A DNA stretch of 39,603 bases from Lysobacterales bacterium (lineage in GTDB: Bacteria; Pseudomonadota; Gammaproteobacteria; Xanthomonadales; Xanthomonadaceae), in assembly GCA_019510195.1 (NCBI GenBank), contig JAEKKW010000064.1:1-39603 (forward strand), read 5' to 3'. Each line of letters opens with the position of its first letter. Positions within the stretch are counted from its first letter, which is position 1. Positions 7,754-26,816 of the stretch are shown here, piece by piece. The notes under the pieces were generated by a model, which ran no database searches, was not told where the DNA came from, and saw only the letters and a list, made by a program, of their open reading frames with translations. The position numbers and the translations under genes are program-made.

Positions 7754-8500
7754 TCAGATCGTCGCGCGTGCCCAGGCGGCCAGCAGGACTGCGGTCGCCG
7801 AAGCGACATTGAGACTTTCCACCGCGCCGGTGCCGGGGATCGACACGCGCAAATCGCAGCTCGCGGCCAGTCCGCGATCCATGCCGGCCTGTTCCGCGCC
7901 CATCACGTAGACGAGGCGTTGCGGCAGGTCGAGCGCGAACAGATCATCACCCCCATCGACCAATGTCGCCGCCGTGGTGTAGCCGGCCTCGTGGAGTATT
8001 GACTGCGCTTCGCGCGTTGGCGGCAGGCGCACCAGCGACACCGCTTCGGCGCCGCCTTCGGCCACGCGCGCCGCGGCGCCGGAGACCTGCAGATCGGAAC
8101 CTGGCGGAATCAGCAGTGCGTTGATGCCGAAATGGGCGGCACTCCGCAGGATCGCACCGAGATTGTGCGGATTGCCGACGCCATCCAGCCATAGCGCGCA
8201 ATCGCGGCCGGCGGGACGCGTGGCCAGCCATTCGTCGAGACGCGGCATCGACGCGCGCAGGACATCGGCGACCACGCCTTCGTGGTGCGAACTCGCCGCC
8301 AGCTTGCGCAGGTCGTCATCGGGCACGATGCGGTAACCGACGCGATGCGATGCGCACCACTTCAGCACGTCGCGCATGTCGCCGACGCGCTCCTCCGACA
8401 GCCACAGCTTGCGCAAGGCTTCGGGGCGATGCGTGAACACTGCGCGCACGGCGTTCACGCCATACATGCGCAGTTCGCGGGTGATGGCCGGATCAGGCAT
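7754..8500 (-). CDS. TrmH/SpoU-family RNA 2'-O-methyltransferase (RlmB-like)
   Basis: A 248-residue SPOUT enzyme. The N-terminal 85 residues form the small substrate-binding domain (YGVNAVRAVF start). The catalytic domain carries the three SpoU motifs: GNPHNLGAILRSAA (motif 1), YVMGAEQAGM (motif 2) and SIPGTGAVESLNVASATAV (motif 3). It 2'-O-methylates a ribose in 23S rRNA or tRNA. Similarity in layout to RlmB (Gm2251) is noted, but the residues AEQAGM and GTGAVESLNVA differ from the RlmB consensus, so the target is left open. Its ATG overlaps the end of the RND pump gene by 8 bases, so it may be read from the same transcript. Confidence 0.85.
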   Translation of the reverse strand: MPDPAITRELRMYGVNAVRAVFTHRPEALRKLWLSEERVGDMRDVLKWCASHRVGYRIVPDDDLRKLAASSHHEGVVADVLRASMPRLDEWLATRPAGRDCALWLDGVGNPHNLGAILRSAAHFGINALLIPPGSDLQVSGAAARVAEGGAEAVSLVRLPPTREAQSILHEAGYTTAATLVDGGDDLFALDLPQRLVYVMGAEQAGMDRGLAASCDLRVSIPGTGAVESLNVASATAVLLAAWARATI

Positions 8501-19101: not shown

Positions 19102-21618
19102 TCAACGCGCGCACTTCACTGCATCCGGATCCCGGCCACTGCCGCTGACGATGCGGATATTGGCAAAGGCTGCGCTGAAAGGCGCATCGGCATCGATGTG
19201 GAACGGCTCCTCGATACCGGGCATGTCGGCCCCGGCCTTGGCGAAACACGCCAGCGGGATTTTGATCGTCTTCTTCTGGCCGATGCCGGCGGTGGCGATC
19301 GCTTCGCTGATGTCCACCTGCCCATTGCATCCGGCACCACACTGCATCGATGCCAGTACCGGGGACTTGGGCGCTGTCCGCACCATGACATCGAACAGCA
19401 ATGCCGCGTTCGCGACCTGCATCGCCGCGAGATTGTTGCGCGAGGGATTGCGCGAGAAGAACGATGCCGGCGCCAGCCATGTCACCTGCTTGGCATCCTG
19501 CTGCGTATTCACCTGCACGGTTTCGACCTCGACCACCGGCTTGCCAGCTGGCCACTTCAACGCACGATTGAGATCGGCGCCCAGGGCCTGGTCCTTGCCA
19601 TCCGCACCGACGCGCAGCGCGAACATCGGCGCATCGGCCATGTTGAAGATCGGCAACACCGTGGCATCGCCGCAATGATCGATTGGCGATAGCGGCAATT
19701 CGCCGAGATGCAATTTCTGCCCGTAACGCATCCCATAGCCCACCTGGAATAGTGGCGCGCGCTTGGCGTCCGCATGGTTGCCGGGCGCCGGGCATGGCAT
19801 GCTTGGCCACGGAAATCCGAGGCGCCCGCGGAATGCGGCACCATTGCGCGCGAACAGCACATCCGCAACGCCACCACCCTCGGTCCCCGGCAGCCACGCG
19901 GCCACGAAGGCATCGGACAAATTCATCAAGTCATTGGTGTAGAGCGGACGCCCGGCGACGAACACCGTCACCACCGGCTTGCCACTCGCGCGTGCCTTTT
20001 GCAGGACGGCGAGATCCTCGGGAAAGCGTCGGCTGTGTGCTTTGGTGTCGGAAGGCACGATGTCGCCATTGGTCTCCGCGTAGGGTGTTTCGCCGATCAC
20101 CGCGACCACGGCGTCGAACTTCGACGGATCGACATCCTTGCCATCGCTGCTGGCGATCACGCTGGCATTGCCTGCCACCTCGCGCAAACCCGAGAGGATG
20201 CTTTGTGCGTTGGGGAAATCGGCGTTGGTGTTGTCGGTGCCTTGCCAGGTCAGCGACCAACCACCGACCTGGTTGGCGATCGAGTCGGCGGTCTTGCCGA
20301 CAACGAGAATGCGCTGTCCATGATGCAGCGGCAGCAAGTTTTTCTCGTTCTTCAGCAACACCAGTGATTCGCGCACCGCACGCCGCGCGAGGTCGCGCGC
20401 CTGCAAGGCAGTCTCCTTTCCGGCGTAACGGCTGTCCGATGGTTTGCGCGTGAACAATCCTGCACGCAGCTTCACGCGCAGGATGCGGGCCACCGCGTCG
20501 TCGATGCGCGACATCGGGATCTGGCCATTTTCGACCTGTTTCGTCGTGTTGGCGATGAAGGCCTTCCAGTCATCCGGCACCATGACCATGTCGATACCGG
20601 CGTTGATCGCCGCGGCGCAGCTGTCATTCGTGCAGCCCGGCAATTGCCCGATACCGTTCCAGTCGGACACGACGAACCCGTCGAAACCCATCTTCTGCTT
20701 CAGGGCATCGGTCAACAGCGCTTTCGCGCCGTGCATCTTGCCGTAATCGATGCCACCGCCACGATCGTTCCAGCTGTTATAGCTCGCCATCACCGTCTGC
20801 ACGCCCGCGCCGAGCGCGCCGTAATAGCCCTGGCCGTGGACGTTGATCATTTCCGCGCGACTGACGGTGCTCTGGCCCTGGTCCTTGCCGTTGTCGGTGG
20901 AGCCATCCCCGATGTAATGCTTGGCGGTGGCGATCGCCGTGCCGTCGCCACGCAGGCCACCCTGCATGCCACGCACGTAAGCGTCTGCATATTGGCGCAC
21001 CAATGCGCCATCGGACGAGAAACTTTCGTAGCTGCGGCCCCAACGGGTGTTCTGCACCACTGCCAGCGTCGGCGAAAACGCCCAGTCGATGCCGGTGGCA
21101 CGGGTCGCACGTGCGGTCGCCGCGCCTATTTCCCGGATCAGTTCCGGATCGCGCGCCGCGCCCAGGCCGACATTGTGCGGGAACATGGTCGCGCCGAACA
21201 CATTGCTGTGCCCGTGCACCGCGTCCGTGCCCCAGATCACTGGAATCGGCACCTTGGCGTCGCTGGCCATCGATGCTGCGTGATAGGCATCGGCGAGCGC
21301 CAGCCAATCCTTCACGCTGGCATGCTTGTTCTTGCCCGGCCATGATCCGCCACCGTTCAATACCGAGCCGATGTAGTAACTGCGAACTTCCTCCGGCGTG
21401 ATCGATTTGATCTCCGGCTGCGTCATCTGCCCGATCTTCTGCGCCAGCGTCATCGACGCCAGGATCTCGCGCACCCGCGCTTCGATCGTCGCATCCTTTC
21501 CGACCGCGCTGCGGATATGCGGCCAATCGCGCAGGGCGCCAGCGGATGGCGCTTCACCCATCGTGATGACGGGCAAGGACAGGCCCGCCGCCACGGCGAC
21601 CGCAAGCAAGCGTCTCAT
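19102..21618 (-). CDS. Secreted GH3 beta-glucosidase / exo-1,4-beta-glucanase
   Basis: An 838-residue glycoside hydrolase family 3 enzyme with a signal peptide beginning MRRLLAVAVAAGLSLPV. The N-terminal TIM-barrel domain includes MTLAQKIGQMTQPE, PVIWGTDAVHGHSN, TAKHYIGDGSTDNGKDQG and the nucleophile region GFVVSDWNGIGQLPGC. The C-terminal GH3 domain spans ESLVLLKNEKNLLPL to LPGTEGGGVADVLF. A further C-terminal region of about 180 residues is the carbohydrate-binding-like domain of ExoP/CelD-type enzymes. It releases glucose from beta-glucans or cello-oligosaccharides in the periplasm. The start ATG (21618) has GAGGTGG just upstream. A GTG two codons earlier is possible. It lies 7 bases after the TonB receptor stop, so the two form an operon. 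Convergent with the nuclease, 18 bases away. Confidence 0.93.
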   Translation of the reverse strand: MRRLLAVAVAAGLSLPVITMGEAPSAGALRDWPHIRSAVGKDATIEARVREILASMTLAQKIGQMTQPEIKSITPEEVRSYYIGSVLNGGGSWPGKNKHASVKDWLALADAYHAASMASDAKVPIPVIWGTDAVHGHSNVFGATMFPHNVGLGAARDPELIREIGAATARATRATGIDWAFSPTLAVVQNTRWGRSYESFSSDGALVRQYADAYVRGMQGGLRGDGTAIATAKHYIGDGSTDNGKDQGQSTVSRAEMINVHGQGYYGALGAGVQTVMASYNSWNDRGGGIDYGKMHGAKALLTDALKQKMGFDGFVVSDWNGIGQLPGCTNDSCAAAINAGIDMVMVPDDWKAFIANTTKQVENGQIPMSRIDDAVARILRVKLRAGLFTRKPSDSRYAGKETALQARDLARRAVRESLVLLKNEKNLLPLHHGQRILVVGKTADSIANQVGGWSLTWQGTDNTNADFPNAQSILSGLREVAGNASVIASSDGKDVDPSKFDAVVAVIGETPYAETNGDIVPSDTKAHSRRFPEDLAVLQKARASGKPVVTVFVAGRPLYTNDLMNLSDAFVAAWLPGTEGGGVADVLFARNGAAFRGRLGFPWPSMPCPAPGNHADAKRAPLFQVGYGMRYGQKLHLGELPLSPIDHCGDATVLPIFNMADAPMFALRVGADGKDQALGADLNRALKWPAGKPVVEVETVQVNTQQDAKQVTWLAPASFFSRNPSRNNLAAMQVANAALLFDVMVRTAPKSPVLASMQCGAGCNGQVDISEAIATAGIGQKKTIKIPLACFAKAGADMPGIEEPFHIDADAPFSAAFANIRIVSGSGRDPDAVKCAR

Positions 21619-21625
21619 CGCCACC

Positions 21626-24382
21626 TCAGAGCTTGTAGCTCAGGCCGACCATGTACTGGCGGCCGTAGGTCGTATATTCCTGCGGCGCCATCAGGCCGCC
21701 GGGGAAGTTGCTGTCCTGCACGGTGCGATACGGCGTGTTGGTGATGTTGTTGACCTGGAACAGGATCGACAGTCCGTGCAAGCGGGTGTTCTCGCCGAAT
21801 TCGTAGCTGGTCTGGAAATCGAGCTGGCGTTCCGACTGCGAGCGCAACACGGAGCGCGATCCGAACAGGTAGGCGTACTCCCCTCGGTACGAGCTGCGAT
21901 AGCGCTCGCTCAGGCGAATCGAGAAGCCCTTGCGCTCGTAAAACACCGTGCCGTTGGCGACGATCTTGGACAAGCCCGGCAACGTGTCGGTCACCGGACT
22001 GCCCGTCCCCTCGGGCTGGATCGAGGTCTTGGTATAGGAGCCATTGACGACCGCACCGAAACCGTCCAGTACCGGATGCAGCAGGCCGAAGTCGAGCGAA
22101 CCGCTCAGCTCCACGCCCTTCATCTCGCCACCGCTGCCGTTGGCCCAGGTGTAGAAGGTCCCCATGTTCGAGATCGGCGTGATGCCGCTGTTGTTGGCAT
22201 AGCCAGTGAAATCCCACGGGATCCCCTGCTGGTACACGTAGGTATCAAGCTTCTTGTGGAAGAACGCCAAACCGACATAACTGGCGCGCCCGAAGTATTT
22301 CTCGAACGAGATGTCGAATGCAGTCGCACGATACGGTTCCAACTTGGGATTGCCGCCACCACCGCCCCACGTCCGCGTCGTCGCGTCGACGCCGGCGCCA
22401 CTGGCCGCATTGAGATAGTTGATCGGTGCGCGCGACAGCGTCTTCGCCGCGCCGAACCGCGTGATCCACCCACTGCCGAAATCGAACACCAGGTTCAGGC
22501 TTGGCAGGAGGTCGTCGTAATGCGTCCCGATCGTCTGCGATCCGGCCAGGCCGTTGTTGACGTTGAATGCCGTGGACGACTGGGTGGTGCGGATCCACTG
22601 GACGCCCGCGTTGCCACGCATGTGGACGCGGCTGCCGAGGTTGGCATCGATATCGACCTTGGTGTACATGGTGCTGACGTTCTCGATGACGTTGAAGTCC
22701 TTCTTGACGTCGTCGTCGCTCATGTTGAGCTGGAGATCGTAGTACTTGCCGAGGATCGCGCGCGGATCGTAGCTCAGTACGTCGCCGATCCCGCTGAAGC
22801 CCAATGACGTTGCACCGAGCAGGTCGGAACCACTCAACGCGGCGCTGGTCGCACCGTTCTTCAGGTTGGCGAAATAAACCAGCGAGCTCTTGTCCTTTTC
22901 GCGTCGGTTGAGGTTGGCGCCAAACGACCAGTGGCTCAGGAATTTCATGTCCAGCGCACGATCAAGGTCGAAACGCAGGGCACGCATCTTGTCTTCCTGC
23001 TTCGAATTCTCCATGCGGCCGTTGTGGCCCCAGCCCGCGGGATCGCCGAGCAGCATCGTGTTGGCATCGGCGAAGTTCGGCGTGTTGAATTGCGCGTACG
23101 CAGGGTAGAGGGGAATGTTGAAGCCGATGTCCTGGCCAGTGAGCGGTCCCGCATACGTCTCGAGTTGCGATTGGTGGCGACGCGCGCGCGACCAGCTCAT
23201 GTCGACGGTTGCAGTCCACGGATCGAGGCGGAACGTGTTGTTCCAGCCCAGCGCCGCAACCGTATCGCCACGGGTGTTGTTGTCATTGCGCACGACCGGC
23301 ATCACGTTGTGCAGGGTCCCGCCGGTGACGAACTCGCCACCATTGACGTTCGTCGTCTGCACGTTGGAATAGTTGACATTGCCGCCATTCGTCCATGGGT
23401 CGTTCGACCACATCACGCCGCGCATGATTTCGTTCTGGTCGAACTTCGAGTAGTACACGTCCAGGACGCTGTGGAAATTCTTGTTGGGCCGGAATTCCAG
23501 CACGCCCATCACGCCGGTGCGCTTGAGCTCATGCGTCTTCACCCAGTTTTCCGAACCCTGCAACGCGATCGCGCCATCGGGCTTGCCGTGCCCGCTCGGA
23601 TACCAGTCTTCGGACCCGCCCCACCACCACGCCTTGTAATGCTTTTCCTGCCACGGTGAATCCATCCGCGCGATGCCGATGGCCACGCCAATGGTGTTGT
23701 CGCGGAACTGGTCGACGTACGACGCGCTCATGCGGTAACCATTGGCCTTGGCGCCTGCCGTCAGCTTGCCGAACGAATTGCGTTCACCCGACGCCGACAC
23801 CACGACACGGCGCTTGCCGAATTCCAGCGGGCGGATCGCCTGCAGGTCGACCGTGCCTGCCAGTCCCTGTCCGACCAGCGCGGCATCCGGCGTCTTGTAG
23901 ACCAGCACGCCGTTCATCAATTCCGCCGGGAACTGGTCGTATTCGACGCTGCGGCTGTCGCCGGTGCTGACGATTTCGCGACCGTTCAACAACGTGGTGC
24001 TGAAGTCGGGCGACATGCCGCGGATGTTGATGACCTGCCCGCGCCCGTCCACGCGCTGCGAGGTGACGCCGGGCAGGCGCGCGATCGATTCCGCGATCGA
24101 CACATCGGGCAGCTTGCCGATGTCTTCGGCGCTCACGGCCTCCACGATCGAATTGGATTCTTCCTTTTTCTTCACCGACTTCTCGACGCTTCCGCGGATG
24201 CCGGTGACCGTCACGCTCCCCAGTTGCTTCTGGTCATCGGTCTTGGCAGCCGTCGATTGGTCCGACGACGTGGTGCTCTGCGCCTGTGCGGCGCCTGCCG
24301 CGAGCGCAAGCATGCACGCTACAGCCAGGGACGCATGACGCAGTTGGTGGGGACGGCGCATCGAATGGGCATCGCGTTGCAT
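21626..24382 (-). CDS. TonB-dependent outer-membrane receptor for carbohydrate uptake
   Basis: A 918-residue receptor with signal peptide core ASLAVACMLALAAGAAQAQ. The plug domain runs from about residue 55 (VTVTGIRGSVEKSVKKK) through SAEDIGKLPDVSIAESIARL and INIRGMSPDFSTTLLNGRE to VDLQAIRPLEFG. The rest is a beta-barrel closing with TYGRQYMVGLSYKL. It belongs to the long TonB-receptor class abundant in Xanthomonadaceae. The operonic GH3 gene and the divergent GH30 gene make a gluco-oligosaccharide the likely ligand. The C-terminal residue is Leu rather than the usual aromatic residue. The promoter has a consensus -35 and a palindromic operator over its -10. Confidence 0.93.
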   Translation of the reverse strand: MQRDAHSMRRPHQLRHASLAVACMLALAAGAAQAQSTTSSDQSTAAKTDDQKQLGSVTVTGIRGSVEKSVKKKEESNSIVEAVSAEDIGKLPDVSIAESIARLPGVTSQRVDGRGQVINIRGMSPDFSTTLLNGREIVSTGDSRSVEYDQFPAELMNGVLVYKTPDAALVGQGLAGTVDLQAIRPLEFGKRRVVVSASGERNSFGKLTAGAKANGYRMSASYVDQFRDNTIGVAIGIARMDSPWQEKHYKAWWWGGSEDWYPSGHGKPDGAIALQGSENWVKTHELKRTGVMGVLEFRPNKNFHSVLDVYYSKFDQNEIMRGVMWSNDPWTNGGNVNYSNVQTTNVNGGEFVTGGTLHNVMPVVRNDNNTRGDTVAALGWNNTFRLDPWTATVDMSWSRARRHQSQLETYAGPLTGQDIGFNIPLYPAYAQFNTPNFADANTMLLGDPAGWGHNGRMENSKQEDKMRALRFDLDRALDMKFLSHWSFGANLNRREKDKSSLVYFANLKNGATSAALSGSDLLGATSLGFSGIGDVLSYDPRAILGKYYDLQLNMSDDDVKKDFNVIENVSTMYTKVDIDANLGSRVHMRGNAGVQWIRTTQSSTAFNVNNGLAGSQTIGTHYDDLLPSLNLVFDFGSGWITRFGAAKTLSRAPINYLNAASGAGVDATTRTWGGGGGNPKLEPYRATAFDISFEKYFGRASYVGLAFFHKKLDTYVYQQGIPWDFTGYANNSGITPISNMGTFYTWANGSGGEMKGVELSGSLDFGLLHPVLDGFGAVVNGSYTKTSIQPEGTGSPVTDTLPGLSKIVANGTVFYERKGFSIRLSERYRSSYRGEYAYLFGSRSVLRSQSERQLDFQTSYEFGENTRLHGLSILFQVNNITNTPYRTVQDSNFPGGLMAPQEYTTYGRQYMVGLSYKL

Positions 24383-24404
24383 TTGGCAGCCTTAATGACG
24401 TGAA

Positions 24405-24434
24405 TTGACAGCGCTGTCATAACGGAGCATTAAT
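24405..24434 (+). promoter_or_regulatory. Predicted promoter for the GH30 gene
   Basis: TTGACA (24405-24410) and ATTAAT (24429-24434) are 18 bases apart on the plus strand. The -35 matches consensus fully and the -10 at four of six. The -35 hexamer overlaps the left half of the palindromic operator. A start site near 24441 leaves the ATG at 24474 with a normal leader. Confidence 0.5.
24406..24419. promoter_or_regulatory. Palindromic operator, TGACAGCGCTGTCA (LacI-family type)
   Basis: A perfect 14-bp palindrome with a central CG step, the general form bound by LacI-family dimers. It lies between the divergent TonB receptor and GH30 genes. It covers the -10 of the leftward promoter and the -35 of the rightward one, so one bound repressor could silence both. 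The LacI-family gene at 25827-26816 is the natural candidate to bind it. Confidence 0.8.
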
Positions 24435-24444
24435 GGAATGTCAA
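24416..24444 (-). promoter_or_regulatory. Predicted sigma70-type promoter of the TonB receptor-GH3 operon
   Basis: On the minus strand a perfect TTGACA (24439-24444) and TATGAC (24416-24421) are 17 bases apart. The -10 shares four bases with the operator palindrome and the start site would fall inside it, a layout expected for repression. The receptor ATG lies about 33 bases downstream of the -10. Confidence 0.65.
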
Positions 24445-24473
24445 CAATTTCACGGACTGCGTTCCATAGATCG

Positions 24474-25782
24474 ATGACTCGACATCCAATCTCCGGTATT
24501 CATCGTTTTTTTGCGCTGCGTTGCAGCATCGGTGGCGGCACGCATTTGCGCTCGCTCGCCGGGCTGCTCCTGCTGGCGGTCTACTGGTCGCCGTTGCACG
24601 CTGCCGTGCAGGCGCACGCATGGGTCACCAGCGACGACCACCGCCTGCAGATGCAGGCAGTCACGATCGAGCGGGCACGCAAGCCGATCGCGCATCCCGA
24701 TATCCGCATCGATGATGGCCAGCACATGCAATCGATCGTCGGATTCGGCGCCGCGATGACCGACGCTTCGGCGCTCCTGTTGCAGGCCTGATACCGCGCT
24801 CGATCACTATCGCTTCGATCACGTGCGCGACACCATCGTTCCATTGTTGCGCCAGGCGCGCGAACTGAACCCGCAACTGAGCGTGATGGCTTCGCCATGG
24901 AGCGCACCAGGCTGGATGAAGGACAGCGACAGCCTGATCAAGGGCACGCTGCGCCCGGAATACATCGATGCCTTCGCCGGTTACCTCGCGCGATTCGCAC
25001 GCGACATGGGCGCCGCCGGCGTACCGCTGTTCGCGCTCACGATCCAGAACGAACCATCATTCGAACCAGGCGATTACCCCGGAATGCGGCTATCGGCAAA
25101 ACAACGTGCCGCAGTGATCGCCGCGCTCGGGCCACGGCTGCCATCGTCGGTGCAGATCCTCGAATGGGATCACAACTGGGACAAACCCGAGGAACCGCTG
25201 GCGGTCCTCGCCGATCCCGCCGCCGCGCGTTACGTGCGCGGCATTGCCTGGCATTGCTACGGCGGCAAGATCGACGCACAAAGCAAGGTGCACGATCTCC
25301 ACCCGCAACTCGATGTCTACCTGACCGAATGCTCGGGTGGCGATTGGGAACCTGTACGCAGCAATGGAATCAGCGGACAGACGAGCAGCTTGGTCATTGC
25401 GCCATTACGCAACTGGGCACGCGGCGTGCAGTTCTGGAACCTTGCGCTGGACGATGCCGCCGGCCCGCACCTCGGTGGTTGCGGCAACTGCCGCGGCATC
25501 ATCACCGTGCACGCGGATGGCAGCTTCACCCCGACCGACGACGCCTGGGCGCTGCTGCATGCCAGCCGCTTCATCCGCGTCGGCGCCGTGCGCATCGGCA
25601 GCAGCGGCAACATGGTCGATCAGGTGGTCGTGGCGAATCCCGACGGCAGTCGCGTCCTCGTCGCCGCCAACACCCGCCGCAATGCGCGCAAAGTCAGCCT
25701 GTGCGATGGTGCCACCTGCCTGCGCTGGACCATGCCCGCGCGCAGTGTGGCAACGGTGCGTTGGCAAGGTACGCCGCGATAG
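24474..25782 (+). pseudogene. GH30 glycosidase (glucosylceramidase-like), interrupted by a deletion with frameshift
   Basis: The first frame gives a signal peptide (SLAGLLLLAVYWSPLHA) and the start of the GH30 barrel, SIVGFGAAMTDASALLLQ, then stops at 24789-24791. The second frame picks up at DTALDHYRFDHVRDTIVP and runs intact to 25782. It includes MASPWSAPGWMKDSDSLIKG, the acid/base Glu in TIQNEPSFEPGDYPG, ILEWDHNWDKP, the nucleophile Glu in LTECSGGDWEP and WNLALDDAAGPH. Between the two parts about 60 or more residues normal for GH30 are absent, and the frame changes at about 24783-24792. The ATG at 24438 was rejected as the start because it lies upstream of the predicted transcription start. 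Intact, it would be a secreted beta-glucosidase, glucosylceramidase or beta-1,6-glucanase. Confidence 0.82.
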
Positions 25783-25826
25783 TGGCAAAATCCGGGCAGC
25801 AACGTCACGTGGACCTGGGAAGCACG

Positions 25827-26816
25827 ATGCGCGCAAGAATCGAAGACGTCGCTGCCGCTGCTGGCGTGTCGATGAAAACCGTGTCGCGCGTGCTCAACGG
25901 CGAGTCCAACGTCCGCGAAGACACGCGCACGCACGTGATGGCCACCATCGAGAAACTCAACTACCGGCCGGATCCTTCCGCACGCCGGCTGGCCGGCCAG
26001 CGTTCCTACGAAATCGTGCTGGCCTACAACAATCCGTCCCGCAATTACCTGATGGATGTCGTCACCGGCGTGCTCGCGGCATCGCGTTCCAGCCACTACA
26101 ACCTCGTGCTGTCACCGATCACGAGCCCGCGCGACATCGACGAAATCTTCGTGCATGCACGCCCGGAAGGCGTCGTGCTGACGCCGCCACTCACCGATGA
26201 TCCGGTGGTGGTAGCCGCGTTGAAGCAACGTCGGCTTCCCTATGCCTGCCTGTCCCCGCATGATCGCAAGGCGCGCATCGGCGCCTACATCGACGATGTC
26301 GCGGCTGCGCGCGACCTGGTGTTGGCGCTGGCAAGGCTCGGCCATCGCCGCATCGGTCACATCCGCGGCGCGAAGGGACATGGTGCGCGCGAGTGGCGAC
26401 TGAGCGGATACAAGCAGGCGCTGACGGATGCGGGCCTGCCCTACGATCCCGCGCTGGTGGTGGACGGTGAATTCCTGTTCGAGTCCGGAGTGAAGGGCGG
26501 ACGCAAATTGCTGGCGATGAAACAGCCGCCCACTGCCATTTTCGCTGCCAACGACGACACCGCCGCAGGTGTCTTGCGCGCCGCTTCGGAGCTTGGACTG
26601 CGCGTTCCGTGCGACCTTTCGGTCTGCGGTTTCGACGATACGCCGGTCGCCAGCCAGATCCTTCCGGCACTCACCACCGTGCGCCAACCGATCACGGAGA
26701 TGGCGCGCGTCGCCACGCTGCAACTGATCGAGCGTATTCGCAACCCCAAGGCGGGCACGATGCAGCCGATCGGCTACGAACTGGTGCAGCGGGAATCGGT
26801 CGGCCCGGCGCCCTGA
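25827..26816 (+). CDS. LacI-family transcriptional repressor
   Basis: A 329-residue regulator. The N-terminal helix-turn-helix is [20 protein letters not shown], followed by the hinge segment [14 protein letters not shown] that inserts in the operator minor groove. The rest is a periplasmic-binding-protein-like sensor domain with [19 protein letters not shown] and [11 protein letters not shown]. It lies 44 bases after the GH30 gene on the same strand. It most likely controls the TonB receptor-GH3 and GH30 promoters through the palindrome at 24406-24419, with a gluco-oligosaccharide or glucose as effector. The effector is inferred from the neighbours only. Confidence 0.92.

Follow-up and report, generated by a model that had tools for sequence, protein, structure and literature searches.

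LacI control of sugar loci that contain a TonB-dependent receptor (TBDR) is already established for SuxR and BglR, as far as the excerpts drawn on here describe them (PMC1790865; PMC2996990), and the site reported below is very probably a new example of this familiar switch. In the sux CUT locus of Xanthomonas campestris, a TonB receptor and sugar enzymes are joined by a LacI-family repressor, and suxA, suxB, suxC and suxR rise in a suxR mutant without sucrose (excerpt of PMC1790865). The locus analysed here has the same kinds of components, but it concerns beta-glucan whereas sux concerns sucrose, and the excerpts give no operator sequence for SuxR (PMC1790865). Sites for the LacI-type regulator BglR of Shewanella are predicted upstream of an outer-membrane receptor and of divergent operons for beta-glucosides, an arrangement like ours, although the genes of its regulon differ (the excerpt does not name GH30) and the likeness is one of description rather than of orthology or motif (excerpt of PMC2996990). 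At the level of the DNA site, central-CG even palindromes are typical of the LacI family (excerpt of PMC4052901), and CcpA, a LacI-family protein, shifted probes into which exactly TGACAGCGCTGTCA, the 14-mer studied here, had been designed, in an excerpt that mentions no mutated-site control; the cre motif quoted for CcpA, TGWNANCGNTNWCA, also includes this 14-mer (PMC10992428).

We analysed a 39,603-nucleotide stretch of DNA from a Lysobacterales bacterium, referred to throughout as the window, in which TGACAGCGCTGTCA lies between divergent sugar-use genes and near a LacI-family gene. CcpA (PDB 1rzr) is the closest solved relative of this LacI by sequence. The protein was nevertheless rejected as a CcpA equivalog, scoring 169.1 bits against the NCBIfam cut-off of 442.35 bits, and its genomic context is local whereas that of CcpA is global. 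A search of open-licence full texts, a scope that leaves out supplements and RegPrecise motif lists, returned no description of TGACAGCGCTGTCA as a natural operator in the excerpts matched, and the one text that has it presents it as the designed CcpA site (PMC10992428); an earlier in silico description in the RegPrecise motif lists is possible. Text matches to TGACA with GCGCTGTCA came mostly from papers unrelated by title and were set aside as primer matches. The locus offers a concrete and well-supported predicted regulator-operator pair for beta-glucan loci of the Xanthomonas/Lysobacter group. It also offers a natural set of paralogues, distinguished by one operator base and by a residue of the hinge, on which the LacI recognition rule could be tested cleanly.

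The receptor, glycosidase and LacI genes around the palindrome

On the minus strand, the window encodes a TBDR of 918 aa (21626–24382; Pfam PF00593/PF07715, with NCBIfam TIGR01782 above its cut-off) and, directly behind it, a GH3 beta-glucosidase/exo-beta-glucanase of 840 aa (19102–21624; PF00933/PF01915/PF18559) whose best solved relative is the exo-1,3/1,4-beta-glucanase 3usz. On the plus strand lies a GH30 gene (24474–25782) that comparison with the intact gene of a congener (L054 8773–10224) reveals to be a remnant: it has an in-frame TGA stop at 24789–24791, lacks about 149 bases and is frameshifted. By sequence, the nearest solved structure to the unbroken GH30 of the congener is 5ngk, a Bacteroides beta-1,6-glucanase that the PDB lists as a glucosylceramidase. 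The interruption is either true decay or an assembly error; the latter is possible since the genome is a draft of 149 contigs (estimated completeness 90.39%). The LacI-family gene that the original prediction placed after GH30 is present at 25827–26816 of the plus strand. It encodes 329 aa with hinge L55-A56, as supported by its reading frame and orthologues, and its domains, matched inside a longer ORF (PF00356, 65.1 bits; PF13377, 119.6 bits), indicate a LacI helix-turn-helix joined to a periplasmic-binding-like sugar domain. No terminator-like site is listed between the GH30 remnant and lacI (25700–25900). A carbohydrate-utilization (CUT) locus joins a TonB receptor, glycoside hydrolases and a regulator with an inner-membrane transporter; of its receptor, hydrolase and regulator components, the window has the receptor, GH3 and LacI, with GH30 broken. 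The GH30 gene proposed as the rightward target is thus not intact in this genome as assembled. A rightward transcript would be expected to yield LacI alone as an intact product, so that rightward control would be mainly autoregulation.

The palindrome itself occupies 24406–24419, inside the segment 24399–24450 originally singled out. It is a perfect, strandless 14-bp palindrome, TGACAGCGCTGTCA, even in length with CG at its centre (TGACAG-CG-CTGTCA), and it lies on the leftward -10. Within the window, a scan allowing up to three mismatches returned three matches against 2.6 expected by shuffling, one of them this single exact copy and the other two with three mismatches each. The genome counts show the palindrome to be beyond chance: it occurs exactly three times in its own 2.19 Mb genome, in 11 of 60 genomes and in 72 of 297 family genomes (its own included in both), whereas a reversed-palindrome control occurs zero times in its own genome, in 0/60 and in 0/297.

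From comparative sequence evidence we consider it very probable that the LacI-family repressor encoded at 25827–26816 uses the palindrome as its operator, and quite possible that a second LacI of the same genome (LacI_2, contig C134) does so too. The mechanism that we infer, from binding and repression to the inducer and the start sites, would run as follows. In the absence of inducer, a LacI dimer on 24406–24419 would mask the -10 and start region from which receptor-GH3 is transcribed and block RNA polymerase there. It would at the same time mask the -35 of a weaker promoter that reads rightward into (GH30)-lacI. A breakdown product of beta-glucan, entering through the receptor, would then release LacI. 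Glucose, or else a short beta-glucoside (gentiobiose, for example), is the likeliest effector to judge from the relatives of GH3 and GH30.

Promoter geometry at the divergent loci

The leftward promoter is as originally described. On the minus strand, a -35 TTGACA (24444–24439), a 17-base spacer and a -10 TATGAC (24421–24416) match 10 of 12 consensus bases and face the TBDR gene, which starts with ATG at 24382; the last four bases of TATGAC fall within the palindrome. The mechanical promoter scan of 23900–24900 did not list this promoter because it accepts only -10 boxes that end in T, and TATGAC does not. The same geometry recurs in 11 divergent TonB-receptor/GH30 loci, which include kin (the window, L054 and L055; L058, L106 and L117) and represent perhaps six or seven independent events. 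In all 11, a receptor-ward TTGACA starts 25–29 bases upstream of the operator (about 0.003 exact hexamers per locus are expected there by chance), and the operator, exact in 10 and with one change in L069, lies on or beside the receptor-ward -10, for which the best candidates are TATGAC in eight loci, TATTTG in two and CATTAT in one. Two further records stand outside the 11: L105, the same record as L058, and L129, a 12th divergent locus set apart by its degraded site with two mismatches, which retains the receptor-ward TTGACA. When 10 of the 11 were aligned (L106, near-identical to L058, was omitted), the main invariant blocks were the -35 TGACA, TATGACA-CGCTGTCAA and the start codon, with a few scattered columns besides. 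The leftward promoter and its predicted occlusion by the operator are thus well supported by comparison, and a LacI operator on this promoter is a strongly supported prediction.

The original prediction also placed a rightward promoter over the palindrome; its -35 hexamer is conserved. A plus-strand TTGACA (24405–24410) does overlap the left edge of the palindrome, and this GH30-ward hexamer is present in all 11 divergent loci whose site is exact or one mismatch away, and missing from L129. Its best -10, by contrast, is the weak ATTAAT at 24429–24434, which follows an 18-base spacer, matches four of six consensus bases without an A at position 2 and was not listed by the mechanical scan. This poor -10 makes the candidate rightward (GH30-LacI) promoter only suggestive: possible but weak. 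The partner -10 is likewise weak in most divergent loci, and yet the GH30-ward -10 scores sum to 36, compared with a null mean of 22 for random nearby positions, with 0 of 10,000 draws reaching 36. Because the null positions begin 30 bases further out and the loci share ancestry, we give more weight to a scan of 51 spacing windows, in which the best summed score, again 36, falls at spacings 16–18 and 17–19 and other windows reach 34–35.

These data bear directly on the alternative that the palindrome governs the leftward receptor-GH3 promoter alone, the rightward TTGACA being merely the T/A flank of the operator and the rightward genes using another promoter. We regard this as plausible, if somewhat short of an even chance. 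The poor ATTAAT, without A at position 2, is what it would predict, and the degraded L129 site has the leftward TTGACA and not the rightward one. The flanks of 74 other distinct sites also speak for it, since 116 of their 148 half-sites are bordered by A or T. Against it, a T specifically is found in 58/148 of these flanks, whereas the TTGACA is kept in all 11 divergent sites. The peak of the summed -10 score at spacings 16–19, slight as it is (36, with 34–35 in other windows), also speaks against it, and the mechanical scan of 23900–24900 lists no other promoter-like site from which the rightward genes might be read.

Co-occurrence of the predicted operator and its regulator, and the paralogues of LacI

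Conservation of the site upstream of orthologous TonB receptors was one of the checks originally proposed. The site is conserved upstream of related receptors, and it tracks the LacI gene across 297 genomes. LacI relatives, defined as matches at E<=1e-75, occur in 130 of the 297, and specifically in 69 of the 72 palindrome-bearing genomes versus 61 of the 225 that lack it in exact form (Fisher p 3.9e-27, uncorrected for relatedness); the three palindrome-bearing genomes without a LacI match are G080, G153 and G236. Counted from the side of the regulator, 69 of 130 LacI-bearing genomes have the exact palindrome and 61 do not. When TGACARCGYTGTCA is allowed, a site is found in 120/130 LacI-bearing and 52/167 other genomes (tallied by hand), with the reversed relaxed control in 7/297; ten of the 130 are without even the relaxed site, and the sites in the 52 genomes without a LacI relative may belong to an arginine-hinge paralogue, described below. 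Among the 17 genomes of the genus that were searched, window-type LacI is found, besides its own genome, only in G005 (88% identity) and G007 (84% identity), and the exact palindrome is distributed likewise.

The two other exact copies of TGACAGCGCTGTCA in the genome are on contig C134, one upstream of a second TonB receptor and one between the second LacI and second GH3 genes. This contig carries a second receptor-GH3-LacI-MFS cluster (L004 1–7527, that is G000:C134), and it ends inside the MFS gene. The idea that a single repressor dimer switches the whole locus is therefore too narrow, as the same 14-mer occurs twice more beside a second regulator. LacI_2 is 50% identical to the window LacI and has in common with it the S-x-K-TVSR core and the hinge L-A, so that two regulators may share operators, and the site does not distinguish the two paralogues. 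It is accordingly possible, though we think it the lesser part of the probability, that LacI_2 is the main user of the operator, or that the two proteins share it on equal terms, in which case the neighbouring lacI would not be the sole controller. The two identical 14-mers on C134 and the kinship of the proteins favour such sharing, as do the LacI_2-type loci of relatives that use the same 14-mer (e.g., L133, L139 and L142). G005 and G007 argue for the window LacI instead: each has a window-type locus, a window-type LacI and one exact palindrome, and the next LacI match in these genomes is 44–45% identical and of the arginine-hinge type, so that there window-type LacI alone goes with the site.

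A third LacI gene of the genome, on contig C139, lies near TonB receptor, GH20 and MFS genes together with TGACAACGTTGTCA, which differs from TGACAGCGCTGTCA by one base per half-site. The TGACAACGTTGTCA copy (L073 6763–6776, that is G000:C139:30762–30775) sits between the GH20/TonB-receptor cluster and an MFS-LacI pair, and the locus is probably one for GlcNAc/chitin. The LacI of this GH20 locus has hinge L-R and an AACGTT core, as opposed to the hinge L-A and GCGC core at the window. Hinge and half-site go together more widely. Counting each distinct LacI gene once and taking the nearest relaxed site within 3.5 kb, GCGC or the hybrid form is nearest to 52 of 53 alanine-hinge genes (the exception being L178) and AACGTT to 10 of 10 arginine-hinge genes; 44 of the 97 distinct alanine-hinge genes and nine arginine-hinge genes have no relaxed site within that distance. 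In a set of 16 enlarged arginine-hinge loci, of which L073 is the one checked for GH20 neighbours, nine have TGACAACGTTGTCA, seven have no relaxed site and none has GCGC or the hybrid. TVSR and the operator G are invariant in the aligned sets. Published work on the LacI family associates G at NT-6 with arginine at AA-20 and reports a correlation of NT-2 with hinge residue AA-55 (excerpt of PMC2978694). Our pattern, a correlation among related genomes, agrees with both of these associations (PMC2978694).

A bolder extension of these data is a graded operator code, in which the two beta-glucan LacI paralogues would share TGACAGCGCTGTCA, the GH20/GlcNAc-type LacI would read TGACAACGTTGTCA and both could read the hybrid TGACAACGCTGTCA of relatives, so that beta-glucan and chitin loci would be co-regulated through shared half-sites with a single hinge residue (Ala/Arg) discriminating between them. 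We think this unlikely; if true, it would place the two main fungal wall polymers under joint control.

More improbable still is that the window palindrome serves another LacI-type protein, namely a NagR-type regulator of GlcNAc use. NagR is of the same family as the window LacI, the consensus of Shewanella NagR has nearly the form of this palindrome, and the third LacI, with its GH20-TBDR-MFS neighbours and near-identical TGACAACGTTGTCA site, may itself be a NagR. The NagR regulons of two Xanthomonas species, moreover, include TonB receptors (excerpt of PMC5343134). The LacI of the GH20 locus is, however, arginine-hinged, and GCGC or hybrid sites occur at 0/16 enlarged arginine-hinge loci. 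Three congeners with a 43–44% LacI match and no window-type LacI (G002, G008 and G015) have a relaxed palindrome and not the exact one. In a comparison of hinge, gene partners and operator core, the window LacI is unlike the putative NagR in its L-A hinge, its GH3/GH30 partners and its GCGC core. We reject this assignment for the window site on account of the GH3/GH30 neighbours, the GCGC core and the use of AACGTT by arginine-hinge loci, and retain the window LacI, possibly with LacI_2, as the predicted regulator.

Sites around LacI relatives

A count free of any motif gives the same palindrome. When all perfect 14-bp palindromes were tallied in 1.31 Mb around LacI relatives in named genomes (the 80 best out of 531 that were confirmed), TGACAGCGCTGTCA was the commonest, at 33 loci, with six for the next and zero for the reversed control. 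The named loci contain 45 distinct exact sites. For 38 of these, a match to receptor, GH3, GH30 or LacI is found within 400 bp and points away from the site, and none (0/45) falls in a region that matches any of the eight query proteins. That the palindrome is a chance or structural element (a terminator or RNA hairpin) is scarcely credible, for while 14 bp of palindrome could fold, nothing else was found in favour, and we reject both chance and terminator given the conservation of the site, its tracking of a LacI gene, these palindrome counts, the lack of any terminator-like site in the mechanical scan of 23900–24900 and a position on the -10 from which the palindrome would be transcribed only partly.

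The remaining seven of the 45 sites have no outward-facing query gene within 400 bp. One of them, at 11563 of L105, is 33 bp from the frame of a sodium:solute symporter; in the relative L058, which is the same record, an SSF symporter thus lies by a second site. Against the general pattern, 16 kb around an exact site in L064 (G048; 8224–8237) contain no match to any of the eight query genes, and another exact site, in L056 (7426–7439), lies right where a reading frame with no Pfam match begins. Upstream of TBDR_2-type receptors, operator-like sites also occur in pairs 22–24 bases apart, some with one mismatch (L130 8770–8806; L132 8778–8814; L133 12833–12868; L139 9846–9883), a spacing that suggests two dimers might bind side by side.
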